Positions 43,224-48,400 of a DNA stretch of 64,000 bases are shown one piece after another. The notes beneath the pieces were generated by a model. It was not told the origin of the DNA. It saw only the letters and a list, made by a program, of their open reading frames with translations, and made no database searches. How positions within the stretch are numbered: position 1 is the stretch's first letter; each line of letters begins with the position of its first letter. Made by a program: the position numbers and the translations under genes. This stretch comes from Pseudohongiella nitratireducens (GTDB taxonomy: Bacteria > Pseudomonadota > Gammaproteobacteria > Pseudomonadales > Pseudohongiellaceae): NCBI RefSeq assembly GCF_001642735.1, contig NZ_LWHM01000031.1, positions 186,001 to 250,000 of the forward strand. Direction: 5' to 3'.

Positions 43224-44300
43224 TCAGCTCTTTCCAGTCTGATCATCCTGCTGTCGCCAGGCTGATGGTGTCTGGCCTAATTTTTCTTTAAATGCCTTGT
43301 TAAAAGACGATAAAGAGAGGTACCCGACATCAAGCGCAATGCTGGAGATCGGTATATGAGCCTCATCCGGATCACGTAATCGGCTTGCCGCCTCTTCAAT
43401 ACGATACTGATTAAGGAACTGATTGAAATTACGAAAGTGCAGTGTCTGGTTGATCAGGCGCCGTAACCGGTATTCCTGTAATGATACCTTGGCTGCCAGA
43501 TCCCCGATTGTCAGCCCAGACTCGGCATAAAGTCGCTCTTCGCGCATCGCTTTGAGTATGCGGTCAATGTAACGTTGCTCCTGCTGGGAAACATTATCAG
43601 TTTCACTGACCTGTTCAGGGGGCTTTGGCATCGGCTGATCTGCTGCCGTGTGGATCAGGTGCGATGCATCGGCTTTGAGACGAAACATCACCAGATTCAC
43701 AAACATCAGCAGAATAAAGACGCCTGAAAAATAGACACTGTCGAGTTGGGGGCTGCCAAGCCAGAAAAAGCCGGAGCCGACAATCAGACCGACAATACTG
43801 CCCATACCAATTGCAAAGGGCACACGAATCTGACGCCGGGGTTCCACCAGGTCTTCATCACGGCCACGATAGGCCATAAATATCACATGGCACGCCAGCA
43901 AGAACATGATGAACTGCGGGATATAGAAGTAAGTGAAGAAAAACAGACTGATTTCAGGCGGGCGGCCTTCAAAAAAGAACAGCCCGACACAACGTGCAGA
44001 AATGTAAAAGGTAATCACCAGCCAGATCCATTGCGGTATGGCACGGCGATCATCAAACAGGTTGCGAGCCATCAGCCAAAGTACAGCCGGGGTAAAAGTA
44101 GCCAGTACCTGCAGTGGCGTCCGAACAATATCAGGCCAGGGCCACAGTCCTCTGGACAGAATATAGGAAACGATACAGACGCAAAATACGGCAATCAGCC
44201 TGGATAGACGTTGCCTGGGAAAATTAATCAGATACAGGCAGGCAAGAAATACCAACTGAGAAATGGCAAGAAAGCTACTTGCCGTGTGAATCCATTGCAT
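43224..44300 (-). CDS. AraC-family regulator with N-terminal membrane sensor
   Basis: 358 residues from the ATG at 44300; the TTG at 44372 would add 24. Seven or eight membrane helices occupy residues 1-210 ('SFLAISQLVFLACLYLINF' onwards) and are joined by a linker to a C-terminal double helix-turn-helix AraC domain: 'LTIGDLAAKVSLQEYRLRRLI' and 'PISSIALDVGYLSLSSFNKAFKEKLGQTPSAWR'. It resembles membrane-bound AraC regulators of unknown ligand. The strong terminator upstream separates it from the copper locus, so a regulatory link there is not implied. Confidence 0.9.
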   Translation of the reverse strand: MQWIHTASSFLAISQLVFLACLYLINFPRQRLSRLIAVFCVCIVSYILSRGLWPWPDIVRTPLQVLATFTPAVLWLMARNLFDDRRAIPQWIWLVITFYISARCVGLFFFEGRPPEISLFFFTYFYIPQFIMFLLACHVIFMAYRGRDEDLVEPRRQIRVPFAIGMGSIVGLIVGSGFFWLGSPQLDSVYFSGVFILLMFVNLVMFRLKADASHLIHTAADQPMPKPPEQVSETDNVSQQEQRYIDRILKAMREERLYAESGLTIGDLAAKVSLQEYRLRRLINQTLHFRNFNQFLNQYRIEEAASRLRDPDEAHIPISSIALDVGYLSLSSFNKAFKEKLGQTPSAWRQQDDQTGKS

Positions 44301-44381
44301 AGGGTCTGATGACCTCAGAATCTCATGATTATTATTGATTCTTATTTCAACCGCTTGGGGCAAGCAAGTCAATTAACAAAT

Positions 44382-44433
44382 AAAAAAACCCTGCGCTAAT
44401 GCGACCACTTCTCTGCATTAACACAGGGTTTTT
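44382..44433 (-). terminator. Terminator of the copper monooxygenase operon
   Basis: On the minus strand AAAAACCCTGTGTTAATGC pairs along 19 positions (two G-T pairs) with GCATTAGCGCAGGGTTTTT around a 12-base loop, and a T-run ends the structure. It lies 20 bases after the stop of the 44454 gene. The A/T ends make it bidirectional. Confidence 0.9.
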
Positions 44434-44453
44434 CGTCCCGAACTTATTGTCGA

Positions 44454-45416
44454 TTACGGTGTAACATTTACCTCAAGATACTGGTCTGCGAACAGACCAC
44501 CGTCATCAGCTCGAGCCCAAAGCACATAACGGCCTGGCTCTTTAAATGTCACAGATGACTCATAGACACCATCTTCCGGTACGGCTGGTGGCTTGAAGTA
44601 GGCACCCCAGGGCGAATTCGCACTGGCGCGCGTATCTTCCCAGCTCTTGACCTGCTGAGGCATGAACTCAGTTTCACCTTCGCCACGATACACACTCCAC
44701 GACAGGAACAGGCCGTTAACCTTGCCCACAGTCACACGTGATGGTGCACGAAGGAAACGCTGAATTTCACGCTGCGCACTGGGACTGGCATCGCGGTTCA
44801 AGCTGGCAACACGACCTGGCTTGGGCAGCCCGTCATCCGTTACCTGGACACGCAGCTCCAGCGGCTCACCAACTCGCACACTGCGAACGGTATCACCAAT
44901 GATACTGACCTGGGGTGGCGTATTGGCACGAGACTCAGGCGTACTGGTACCCGCACCCAGCGAACCGGTTTCTGAGGCAATCACAACATGATCGACAACA
45001 TAGTCTTTATCCAGTGTCGCATAAGCGGTGCGAGTTTCACCGTTAGGCGAAGTGATGGTCCAGGTTAACTCCTGGTCACCCCAGTCTTCTGGCACTTGTA
45101 CCTTGAAGGTAAAGCGGTTGCGACGCGGCTGGAAATGAGTAGGCTGACCACGATCTTCAGCGCCTGGGCTAAAGAAATTATTCTCGCCAACAGGAATATC
45201 CAGCTCTTCTTCCCAGTTTTCGTTGTGGTAACCGAAAATGAAGCTGTAACTGCCATCAGGGTTCTGCTCCCAGCCTTCATAGGCTGGCTCGATGTGCTGC
45301 CCCTTTAAATAGGTCTGGGCAGAAACCGGAGCGGCGATAAATGCCGCTCCCAACACAACGGTTGCCACAATGGCATGCACTCTGCTGAGTGCATTGTTTA
45401 CTGCTTTCAACATCAT
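44454..45416 (-). CDS. Secreted beta-sandwich protein paired with the copper monooxygenase
   Basis: 320 residues, signal peptide to 'AAPVSAQ' (about 34). The rest has no family I recognise. Aromatic/acidic repeats such as 'AYEGWEQNPDGSYSFIFGYHNENWEEEL' and two Ig-like stretches ('NRFTFKVQVPEDWGDQELTW', 'VRVGEPLELRVQVTDDGLPKPG') suggest beta-sandwich domains. The end 'FKEPGRYVLWARADDGGLFADQYLEV' also looks like an Ig-type strand set. Its start overlaps the stop of the monooxygenase gene (ATGA) and both are exported, so they are likely to act together. It is followed by a terminator. Confidence 0.8.
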   Translation of the reverse strand: MMLKAVNNALSRVHAIVATVVLGAAFIAAPVSAQTYLKGQHIEPAYEGWEQNPDGSYSFIFGYHNENWEEELDIPVGENNFFSPGAEDRGQPTHFQPRRNRFTFKVQVPEDWGDQELTWTITSPNGETRTAYATLDKDYVVDHVVIASETGSLGAGTSTPESRANTPPQVSIIGDTVRSVRVGEPLELRVQVTDDGLPKPGRVASLNRDASPSAQREIQRFLRAPSRVTVGKVNGLFLSWSVYRGEGETEFMPQQVKSWEDTRASANSPWGAYFKPPAVPEDGVYESSVTFKEPGRYVLWARADDGGLFADQYLEVNVTP

Positions 45417-46942
45417 TCTCCCTCCGAACCCGCTACGGCCATATGCGGCATGATTTCTTTTTCTTCGTCTTTAATAGTCAGGTAGTCAATCTTGGCGTCC
45501 GACATTTCTTCCTTGTCTTCTTCCGTCAACTCAACTGGTGCGACCAGCGGTGCCAGACACAACGGACAACCAATCACATGGTCATTCGGACCCAGATTCA
45601 GATTTCGGCGGCGATCAGCCATTTCCTGGAAGAACTCGTCTTCTGACATGGCAACGCGCATACCCAGGTCGATGAACATATTGGTCACAGACCGGTTACC
45701 TGAACCCTGCCAGTTACGTGAATCAGGCACATTCGGGTTGGTATCCGTATTGTTCATGTAGCCAACAATGTGCAGCACCGTGCCTTTTGGCAGCAGTGGC
45801 TGGTGATCGGCCTCAAAGGCATAACCACGTACCCAGTTATGGTCGTAACCCACACAAGACAGGGTCTCAACGGTATAGCCCCAGGAGGCTTCCAGACACA
45901 TGCGCTCACCTGGTGCGTGCAAATGTGGCTCGAATGTCACGATCTTGGTTGGCTGATCAAGCACCGCATAGGCATGCAGTTCCTGGTTATCTTCATTACC
46001 GGCGATCGAGATATCCACACCATTACCCAGACCAATGATAGCCGGCTGGTATTTAGGCTCGTAGCCTTTCGGGTGGAAGCGGAAGCCAATTTCCAAGTGA
46101 CCGGTCGTGTCTACACCCGTAGCGTGCAGGTGGACTGAATCAGAAACAATGGCCGAGCCTGCTCTTAGCAAACGACCGGCATCTTCATCAAAGATGTCAG
46201 GGTTACGGGCAATCTCATGAACAGGCCAGGAAACGGGTCTCTCTGTTGCCTGTCCATTCTCATCCTGAACCTGTGTGCTCCAGATCATATGGTGGACAAT
46301 GTTACGACCACCGACCGTGTCACCAACGGCTTCCAAATCCAGGTCATTCACTTCGCGGATTTCGACAGATTTCACATAACGGTCTTCTTCCAGTCCTGTG
46401 GGAATGCTGGGAATGTTACCCCACCAGTCAGGTGCCTGACCTTCTACAGTAATATCTTCAGTGCGGACAATCAGATCAGGCTGACCTGCAGACCAGCCTG
46501 CAGCGTCATCGAAATTCAGAGGCTCTGGCGCATCAGCAACATCACCTTTGGGTACACCACCTCGAGCCCAGGCTGAAATAGCGGCCAGCTCTTCGTCACT
46601 CAGAGAAGGGTCCTGTTTGTAATGCTGAATACCCACCTCTTTTTCCGCATACCAGGGCGGCATAGCGCCCGCTCGGTCTCGCAGACCGGTACGGTATTCG
46701 ATCAGACCAGCGAAAGGTACGACTTCGTCATAGGTAACCAGTGACATAGGCGCAACCCCACCGTCACGGTGACAGGTTTGGCAGGCGCGCTGCAGAATGG
46801 GTTCAATATCTTTATGGAATGTAACATCAGTACCTTGTTGCGCAGATGATACTGCTGGCATCATCAGTCCGGCAGCGCTCAACACACTGCTGGCCAGAAA
46901 GGCACGGGATAGACCTCGGCGGGTAAGCTTCAGCATCCTCAC
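45413..46942 (-). CDS. Secreted cytochrome c / copper type II monooxygenase-like fusion
   Basis: 509 residues with a twin-arginine-like start ('KLTRRGLSRAFLASS') ending in 'AVSSAQQ'. A cytochrome c-like domain with one CxxCH (CQTCH, 54-58) follows. The second part resembles the PHM/DBH fold: 'NIVHHMIW' (H217, H218), 'DSVHLHATG' (H271, H273), 'FEPHLHAPGERM' (HxH at 340/342) and Met in 'VTNMFID' (M422). These could form the two-copper site, and the heme could deliver electrons. A CxxC ('CPLCLAPL') sits near the end. Substrate unknown; oxidation of a small organic is a guess. Confidence 0.82.
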   Translation of the reverse strand: MRMLKLTRRGLSRAFLASSVLSAAGLMMPAVSSAQQGTDVTFHKDIEPILQRACQTCHRDGGVAPMSLVTYDEVVPFAGLIEYRTGLRDRAGAMPPWYAEKEVGIQHYKQDPSLSDEELAAISAWARGGVPKGDVADAPEPLNFDDAAGWSAGQPDLIVRTEDITVEGQAPDWWGNIPSIPTGLEEDRYVKSVEIREVNDLDLEAVGDTVGGRNIVHHMIWSTQVQDENGQATERPVSWPVHEIARNPDIFDEDAGRLLRAGSAIVSDSVHLHATGVDTTGHLEIGFRFHPKGYEPKYQPAIIGLGNGVDISIAGNEDNQELHAYAVLDQPTKIVTFEPHLHAPGERMCLEASWGYTVETLSCVGYDHNWVRGYAFEADHQPLLPKGTVLHIVGYMNNTDTNPNVPDSRNWQGSGNRSVTNMFIDLGMRVAMSEDEFFQEMADRRRNLNLGPNDHVIGCPLCLAPLVAPVELTEEDKEEMSDAKIDYLTIKDEEKEIMPHMAVAGSEGE

Positions 46943-47031
46943 AGGACACCTCCTTTATATTATTGTTTAACGGTTCACGAAGCATTGGAACACGATTTCA
47001 ACAACACCGTCTTGCTGATTCATGCAATAGG

Positions 47032-47077
47032 CTGACGGATTTCTGAAAAAACGTACAGAAACCTAATAATCCGTCAG
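47032..47077. promoter_or_regulatory. Nested inverted repeat in the divergent copper-locus spacer
   Basis: CTGACGGATT (47032-47041) has its exact reverse complement AATCCGTCAG at 47068-47077; inside it TTTCTG pairs with CAGAAA. It lies between the monooxygenase operon and the CopC-like gene. It could be an operator or a structured leader. Confidence 0.5.
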
Positions 47078-47145
47078 TTCGGCCATACCGATCACGATTT
47101 GAAAATGATATAAACTGGACACACTCAGCAGTAATGGGAAGGGAG

Positions 47146-47745
47146 ATGATTCGACAGACCGCACACAGGCTCAAGGCAGGCAACTTTCTGCCAGGCATAC
47201 TGATTGGCTGGTTATTACTGGCAACCACCAGTCACGCCCAGCACAACCACGGTTATCAGTATTCCGGCTCAGTTAACTTCGAAACCATTCCGGAAGATGA
47301 CTCTGTTTTACCGGAACAGCCTCGCGATCTCATTCTTCAATTCAGTGAGCCAGTGACATTAATGAAACTCGCGCTTCGCAATGACATCGAAAAGCTGGTC
47401 GATATCGGGTTCCGTTACGATCCCACTCCCAGCCGTGTGTTTATCTGGCCATTGCCTGAACTGCCAGACTCGGATTACTACCAGATAGACTGGTCAGCCC
47501 TGGATTCGAAGCGAATCATGATGGTAGGGCAGTTTTTCTTCTCGGCTGGACCGGATGCCGTGGTTCCCAGCTCAATCATTGCTGAAGAGGAGGAAACGTT
47601 AATGGTACCGGATTATCGCTTGAGTGATTTATCAACGTTCACGCCACCCGAAAACAAGCAACCCGACTCAGTCCGGATTGGTGGCAGGTCAGAGCAACCG
47701 GCCACCAATGATGAGGCTTCACCCGAAGGCAAAGAAGGCAACTAG
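47146..47745 (+). CDS. CopC-like periplasmic protein
   Basis: 199 residues from the ATG at 47146 with GGGAAGGGAG directly before it; an ATG at 47134 is an alternative. A signal peptide ends near 'LLATTSHA'. The mature start 'QHNHGYQYSG' is followed by a CopC-type beta-barrel pattern: 'EDDSVLPEQPRDLILQFSEPVTLMKLAL'. The classic copper ligands of CopC are not fully recognisable, so metal binding is inferred from fold similarity. A disordered C-terminus (Pro/Glu-rich) follows. It is divergent from the copper monooxygenase operon, sharing a 200-base spacer with an inverted repeat. Confidence 0.7.
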   Translation: MIRQTAHRLKAGNFLPGILIGWLLLATTSHAQHNHGYQYSGSVNFETIPEDDSVLPEQPRDLILQFSEPVTLMKLALRNDIEKLVDIGFRYDPTPSRVFIWPLPELPDSDYYQIDWSALDSKRIMMVGQFFFSAGPDAVVPSSIIAEEEETLMVPDYRLSDLSTFTPPENKQPDSVRIGGRSEQPATNDEASPEGKEGN

Positions 47746-47752
47746 CCAGGCA

Positions 47753-48400
47753 TCAGTGAAGTGTCGCGTGGCGTGGCCGCTGCGTTGAGTGGCAGAAATC
47801 AGGGTGGAGCAAATCGGTCTGCTTCACCATTAACAGGTCATGCCGCGTTAATCTCTCGTACTCACTGGTCGGCTCCACACCAGGGACATCCTCAAGCAGT
47901 ACACAGATCACGTCATCATTATCCATATCGACAACCACACAGCGCTTGAAACCGGCCACAGTATTCAATGCCGCAAAACTGCCAACATCACAGGCATGGG
48001 GCGGAAAGCGCCCGACCGCATCCTGGATAACACCCGCCGAAGAATAGGCTGTGCCGAACCCGGCAGCGGCTACAACATGAATAATTTCAATAATTTCCGG
48101 ATCCGTCAAATCAACACGAACGGAATCAGTCGCTTCAGCGAATTCGCCGTCCTGATGAAACGTCACCAGCTTGAGGAACAGGCTCATATCGTCCTGGTTC
48201 CATTCCAGCATCTCTTCTCTTTCACTACGGGAGCTGTCTGAGGAAAAGCTCATCACACTAGTTTCAATAGTAAGATCTTTTCTCTCTTCATTGTCTTCTT
48301 CCGAATCAAAAGGAACGACCATAGAAACAGCACAGAATCCATCACTGGATTCAGCACTGAGTCGCCAAAGGAAAGGGATGTTTCCGGAGAGTTCAACCAT
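47753..48400 (-). CDS. Uncharacterised acidic protein
   Basis: 215 residues from the ATG at 48400 (a TTG at 48418 is in frame). No family is recognised. It has no signal peptide or membrane segment. The sequence is acidic with a serine-rich stretch ('TSVMSFSSDSSRSEREEML') and a well-ordered-looking C-terminal half with 'EIIHVVAAAGFGTAYSSAGVI' and 'FKRCVVVDMDNDDVICVLLED'. The tail is rich in histidine and threonine. It is convergent with the CopC-like gene and followed by a large AT-rich gap. Codon use looks like that of its neighbours. Confidence 0.6.
   Translation of the reverse strand: MVELSGNIPFLWRLSAESSDGFCAVSMVVPFDSEEDNEERKDLTIETSVMSFSSDSSRSEREEMLEWNQDDMSLFLKLVTFHQDGEFAEATDSVRVDLTDPEIIEIIHVVAAAGFGTAYSSAGVIQDAVGRFPPHACDVGSFAALNTVAGFKRCVVVDMDNDDVICVLLEDVPGVEPTSEYERLTRHDLLMVKQTDLLHPDFCHSTQRPRHATLH

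Follow-up and report, generated by a model that had tools for sequence, protein, structure and literature searches.

The closest described systems are the copper monooxygenases PHM and DBH, a type of enzyme by which animals make hormones. Work on them has long treated ascorbate as the source of electrons, which travel ~11 angstroms from one copper to the other; the HxH-plus-Met set of the CuM-type copper is what we take to be the oxygen-activating site in both. Here we analyse a locus of Pseudohongiella nitratireducens, a marine-type bacterium, in which a copper domain of this kind appears to follow a heme domain on one polypeptide. The window, by which we mean the whole stretch of DNA analysed, comprises 64,000 nucleotides of contig NZ_LWHM01000031.1 (positions 186,001 to 250,000) from a 3.4 Mb genome whose nearest relatives are Pseudohongiella and other Gammaproteobacteria. 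The locus consists of three open reading frames: a large gene (45413-46942, minus strand), a partner gene (44454-45416, minus strand) and a divergent CopC-like gene (47134-47745, plus strand). Model and residue pattern identify the large protein as a putative exported chain in which a c-type cytochrome precedes a PHM/DBH-like copper domain, and we give somewhat better than even credence to the reading that it acts in the periplasm as a PHM-type monooxygenase, with its own heme as electron donor, and is made with the partner from a two-gene operon.

An AlphaFold2 model of the large protein was built from a 50-row alignment and compared by Foldseek. Every one of ranks 1-31 among the 44 matches at E<=1e-3 was a PHM or a DBH (E 1.8e-8 to 5.2e-6), assorted proteins appeared only after rank 31, and by this comparison the predicted model has the two-domain beta-sandwich fold of PHM. 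Seven homologous places in the window's own genome (paralogs, E 4.8e-27 to 5.6e-8) carry all seven of that genome's matches to PF03712, four of them above cut-off. The Foldseek ranking, the PF03712 matches on homologous paralogs and the conservation of the ligands together tie the large protein to PHM/DBH.

Ligand conservation was read from an alignment of the close set of the large protein (A1, 50 rows) and from an alignment of 24 relatives and paralogs that are 26-39% identical to the first row (A4), some of which are close to each other, so that they do not count as 24 independent samples. All six predicted copper ligands (H217, H218, H271; H340, H342, M422) are complete in 23 of the 24 A4 rows. 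The CuH-type set, H217, H218 and H271, is complete in 23/24, the CuM-type set, H340, H342 and M422, is present in 24/24, and H217, H340, H342 and M422 are four of the 14 invariant columns, a pattern beyond chance. In A1 the expected ligand stands at every one of the six positions in at least 49 of the 50 rows. The row without HH there (217/218) is a paralog that is out of register and does contain HH; the row without M422 has a gap. The sole A4 exception is a redoxin-cytochrome c-PHM paralog (L111:7183-8964, G000:C20) in which HS replaces HH and R replaces the third CuH-type His; it keeps HxH, Met and heme and, judged from these residues, is possibly a one-copper version. In PHM numbering, H217/H218 presumably correspond to H107/H108 and H271 to H172, while H340/H342 were assigned to H242/H244 and M422 to M314, the last checked on the PDB-matched stretch.

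An earlier note on this DNA had placed a CxxCH heme site and the His-His, HxH and Met features of PHM/DBH-type enzymes on one exported chain. Its three open reading frames lie where it placed them, and its residue numbers are right (CQTCH 54-58, HH 217/218, HLH 271/273, HLH 340/342, M422), and its PHM/DBH-type assignment agrees with the predicted fold and the HHH + HHM ligand pattern. Of its His motifs, the HxH at 340/342 stands, whereas that at 271/273 is not shared across the family: the paralogs have one histidine here, the third of the CuH type (SVHL/SIHY), which lines up with H271, and H273 is His in 48/50 A1 rows versus 4/24 A4 rows, which makes it a group-specific extra His. The close group is further marked by a Cys pair, C349 and C363, on a predicted hairpin (49/50 A1 rows each) and by a C-terminal CPLC (48/50, the other two rows being gapped); H455 and CPLC are conserved in this group near the C-terminus (residues 455-462). 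At the positions of PHM R240, N316 and Y318, which we take to be the residues that bind the peptide carboxylate, the large protein has E338, I424 and L426, in a register set by the shared ligand pattern (the N316 and Y318 positions were checked on the PDB-matched stretch). The large protein thus has none of the three residues of a peptide-amidating PHM; a glycine-extended peptide is probably not the substrate, and a peptide-amidating role is unlikely as judged from these positions.

In the heme region, His58 and Met94 are both complete in all 21 A4 rows that have a heme domain, and Met94 is found in 50/50 A1 rows; its axial role we assume from the MPP motif. PF13442 matches the large protein below cut-off only (E 0.0025), and the CxxCH and distal Met stand on a chain that is exported, as judged by eye from a signal peptide at approximately residues 1-35. 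Heme and PHM parts occur in the window's genome as cytochrome c-PHM (the window), as redoxin-like-cytochrome c-PHM (four genes) and in a split form. The split form lies at L112:7191-11644 (G000:C1), where three heme-less PHM-like genes have one separate redoxin-cytochrome c gene among them; at two of the three positions taken to bind peptide in PHM, these genes have R and Y. Heme and PHM parts therefore appear to stay together even when split, and the fused, redoxin-fused and split-but-neighbouring layouts make the strongest case from sequence for heme and coppers working together.

In the mechanism that we propose, the pool of respiratory cytochromes in the periplasm would deliver electrons to the c-type heme, with probable His/Met ligation; from there they would pass to the CuH-type electron-transfer copper (H217, H218, H271) and on to the CuM-type oxygen-binding copper (H340, H342, M422), where activated O2 would hydroxylate a small substrate. 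The heme would stand in for the ascorbate of animal PHM/DBH, and the beta-sandwich partner would dock, stabilise or present substrate. The fold in this scheme rests on prediction and the ligands on conservation; metal binding, the electron path, oxygenation, the substrate and the partner's role we infer. Electrons can flow into a c-type heme as well as out of it, and the same protein could also run in reverse, as a copper oxidase or dehydrogenase that passes substrate electrons through the heme to the respiratory chain with no insertion of oxygen. Oxidase-assembly genes near the module are compatible with reversed flow (COX15 in the window and in 9/80 loci, a SURF1 cluster in 12/85 loci), possibly by chance, and COX15 linkage was not counted because its nine loci are all among the ten nearest. 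The CuM-type HxH + Met set, however, is the most conserved part of the protein, and we regard reversed flow as unlikely. Alternatively, small reductants such as ascorbate or quinol might still feed the coppers, the heme only tuning or protecting the site; the three heme-less PHM paralogs would suit this arrangement, but they adjoin the redoxin-cytochrome c gene, so that heme is at hand there too, and we consider small reductants a rather improbable source.

A heme-fed monooxygenase made with a dedicated subunit, the reading that we prefer, draws further on the partner gene. The earlier note described the next gene as overlapping the large one and of no known family, and both statements were borne out: the sequence ATGA (45413-45416) joins the stop of the large gene to the start of the partner in a four-base overlap, and the partner had no Pfam or NCBIfam match over cut-off and no PHROG or PDB-sequence match, leaving it without a named family. 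Its model (predicted local distance difference test score, pLDDT, 76.0) has an N-terminal helix and strands that we read as two beta-sandwich domains, and the 50 Foldseek rows listed are assorted and mostly Ig-like, with a template modelling (TM) score over the query of <=0.24. Of 87 partner places, 72 share their strand with a listed non-redoxin PHM place <=1.5 kb away, 58 of them lying downstream of the PHM gene and 14 upstream; conversely, 71/82 listed non-redoxin PHM places have a partner near, whereas 0/67 listed longer paralogs (classed by open-frame length) do. Counted by locus, a partner match is present in 77/80 (L022, L053 and L084 being without), with the partner sitting by a second PHM copy in L050 and L062, and counted by genome the large-protein and partner matches fall in the same 25 of 56. 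The two proteins co-diverge: their distance matrices give r = 0.981 for 83 pairs, where 1000 shuffles reached 0.35 at most, r = 0.935 for the 71 pairs of the close group (0.55 at most in 1000 shuffles) and r = 0.943 for the 12 pairs of the distant group, this last a correlation without shuffle comparison. The pairing and the matrix correlation imply that large gene and partner move and duplicate as a unit. Taken at the level of sequence, the overlapping gene appears to be a dedicated, conserved partner of the large protein, likely a docking, stabilising or substrate-presenting subunit, and the two genes likely form an operon.

Several further observations concern the partner family. Two loci (L141:6853-9866 and L142:5358-8391) carry CopC-like, partner and AraC genes in window order without a PHM gene, which speaks against a strict need for adjacency. 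A Cys-Cys-Trp/Tyr motif is conserved toward the end of the distant partners (L129-L140, L050) and is absent from the window group. A ~390-residue gene adjoins distant pairs in 9/12 such loci (L130-L135, L138-L140; e.g. L140:11077-12252) and matched no Pfam family above cut-off in either of two copies scanned; within the genus it is present in the seven genomes with a distant partner copy (G001, G002, G005, G007, G008, G010, G012) and in 0 of the other eight.

The CopC-like protein matches PF04234 above cut-off (27.7 bits against 23.3, E 5.7e-6), as do, at E<=0.01, all 23 rows of an alignment of PHM-linked CopC-like proteins (A6). The earlier note had presented the three genes as a copper-dependent oxidation system to be checked by co-occurrence, and linkage of the genes was upheld: beyond the partner pairing described above, 18/20 strong CopC-like homologs lie <=1.5 kb from a listed PHM-type or partner place (32 genomes), against 0/12 weak homologs. 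Fifteen of the 18 belong to the window's genus, all <=450 bases from the PHM gene, and the rest are one each in G017, G018 (partner only) and G020 (longer paralog only), so that most of the linkage is one inherited arrangement; other arrangements exist, a gene of the CopC cluster being found in 27/85 loci. The gene is divergent, has the domain and is linked, as had been claimed, but a copper-carrier role is weakened. Histidine in the DGH segment, presumably a ligand of the CopC Cu(II) site, occurs in 0/23 A6 rows, whereas a weak CopC homolog of the same genome (L157), followed by a gene resembling copD, shows ADGH together with an early histidine (AHTEL); a second weak CopC-like sequence (L158, G008) has SDGH. 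A QH within the first 60 residues is seen in 18/23 A6 rows, and some of the other five rows are incomplete. The missing DGH-segment histidine makes a simple copper-delivery role doubtful, and the protein is a linked accessory that, to judge from its residues, has probably lost ordinary Cu(II) binding. The same observation bears on the idea that the large protein senses, buffers or sequesters copper, its PHM-type sites storing the metal and its heme sensing redox state. A linked CopC-domain neighbour favours copper homeostasis, but that neighbour is without the DGH-segment histidine while the genome has a DGH CopC elsewhere, and a count of 7 to 24 PHM-type matches per genome, across the 25 genomes with any, suits substrate diversity better; we think such a role very unlikely.

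Against the heme-fed monooxygenase stand several results. The model of the large protein is of modest confidence (pLDDT 66.5, predicted TM score 0.64), and its best Foldseek TM score is 0.57 over the PHM target and 0.37 over the query. The large protein has no match to Pfam Cu2_monooxygen or Cu2_monoox_C at E<=1, and none to PHM in Pfam, NCBIfam or PDB sequences; more broadly, its copper part was placed in no family by searches of Pfam, NCBIfam, PHROGs and PDB sequences. PF03712 at E<=0.1 is confined to 7 of the 24 A4 proteins, the own-genome paralogs, the other 17, window type included, being without it; nothing in the genome matches PF01082, the N-terminal domain of PHM, at E<=1; and hhalign against a single PHM C-terminal stretch gave alignment probabilities of 0.2% and 0.1%, an uninformative result. 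Furthermore, joint inheritance also predicts the co-divergence of large protein and partner, and 15/87 partner places have no listed PHM neighbour, five of these being fragments (open frames <200 residues). That PF03712 matches are confined to paralogs and that most CopC linkage is one inherited arrangement slightly tempers our confidence in this reading and in the broader proposal below. A PNGase F-like hydrolase or binding protein with a double jelly-roll fold and histidines that bind no copper, suggested by PNGase-type proteins at Foldseek ranks 38, 41, 45 and 47 and by the common Pfam clan in which PMC8812541 places PNGase F and PHM, is highly improbable: the E-value of the best PHM/DBH match is lower by some four orders of magnitude, the ligands are conserved and keep their order, and the paralogs match PF03712.

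Table 1. Features of the locus, in window coordinates
Feature	Coordinates	Strand	Basis
Cytochrome c / PHM-like copper protein (predicted), 509 residues	45413..46942	-	homologs and predicted fold
Heme c site CQTCH, residues 54-58	46769..46783	-	His58 in 21/21 heme-bearing A4 rows
Met94 (AMPPW), likely distal heme ligand	46661..46663	-	conservation
His217-His218, predicted CuH-type ligands	46289..46294	-	23/24 A4 rows
His271, predicted third CuH-type ligand	46130..46132	-	alignment with paralogs
His340-Leu-His342, predicted CuM-type ligands	45917..45925	-	24/24 A4 rows
Met422, predicted CuM-type Met ligand	45677..45679	-	24/24 A4 rows
Partner protein, 320 residues, exported, two predicted beta-sandwich domains	44454..45416	-	fold, pairing
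CopC-domain protein, 203 residues, exported, divergent	47134..47745	+	PF04234
Intergenic region between divergent units, 191 bp	46943..47133	.	coordinates
Strong hairpin, T-rich 3' side, likely terminator	44383..44434	-	fold energy against shuffles
AraC-type helix-turn-helix protein, hydrophobic N-terminal part	43224..44372	-	PF12833

The large gene starts with GTG, with AAGGAGGT five bases upstream, and a consensus promoter scan of 44300-47800 returned 2 sites against 2.9 expected, no better than shuffles. The hairpin beyond the partner has 20 consecutive pairs (-29.9 kcal/mol, z -6.96; as good in 0/200 shuffles) and likely closes the two-gene operon ahead of the AraC-type gene, which by its position beyond the hairpin is probably a separate unit. 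The AraC-type protein is a possible regulator; its cluster is found in 20/85 loci, and the same genome has another member of the cluster (L109:5033-6145), which is divergent from a PHM gene of the redoxin type. The wider neighbourhood was rejected as a clue to substrate, the recurrent neighbours of relatives looking housekeeping or unrelated: Pfam gave SURF1, DUF6644, an alpha/beta hydrolase, a beta-lactamase fold and trypsin-PDZ, and from sequence starts we presume infB-rbfA-truB-pnp, a mutase and a transporter. The partner has a narrow distribution: across the class, the partner profile (A2) matched 1/369 genomes, the window's own; across the phylum, the large-protein profile (A1) matched 10/398 at E<=1e-5, with the match confined to the heme region in eight. 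No homolog turned up in the plasmid collection at E<=1e-5. One 2.8 Mb genome (G019) has 24 PHM-type and 17 partner matches, some of them fragments.

We found no account of bacterial cytochrome c-PHM proteins in the open-access literature searched, and such architectures may be listed already in other domain databases. A broader proposal, tentative and in our estimate falling a little short of an even chance, is a respiration-powered family of PHM-type monooxygenases with heme for ascorbate, an obligate partner subunit, a CopC fold reused without its copper site, and a module duplicated and diverged within one marine family, each version with its own partner copy. Were this so, respiration rather than vitamin C may power PHM-type chemistry in bacteria, and the many module versions would imply a set of periplasmic hydroxylases for different substrates. 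A natural version with a built-in electron donor would, if real, make inter-copper transfer directly measurable and provide, from a bacterium, a dicopper enzyme that hydroxylates C-H bonds.

Among known systems, PNGase F, a hydrolase without copper, has a related double jelly-roll fold and a structural match weaker than that of PHM. The divergent neighbour resembles CopC in its PF04234 domain and, with the other PHM-linked CopC-like proteins, differs from the CopC protein L157 in lacking the DGH-segment histidine. The own-genome redoxin-cytochrome c-PHM proteins (L002-L005) are homologous over heme and PHM parts at 27-28% identity, with PF03712 detected below cut-off in a whole-protein scan; unlike the window protein they have an extra N-terminal redoxin-like region (Pfam over cut-off in 1/4, weak in three), and their length class differs from the window type in having no partner gene beside it at any of its 67 listed places. 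DBH (4ZEL) is the best single Foldseek match (E 1.8e-8) and carries a DOMON domain in front, whereas the window protein has a cytochrome c in front of its copper part. Finally, the large protein is like rat PHM (1PHM/1SDW) in its predicted double beta-sandwich and its HH + H and HxH + M ligand order, and unlike it in the 8-13% identity of the PHM/DBH Foldseek rows, in the changed peptide-binding positions, and in having a fused N-terminal cytochrome c, a beta-sandwich partner, a bacterial host and no lyase domain on the chain.

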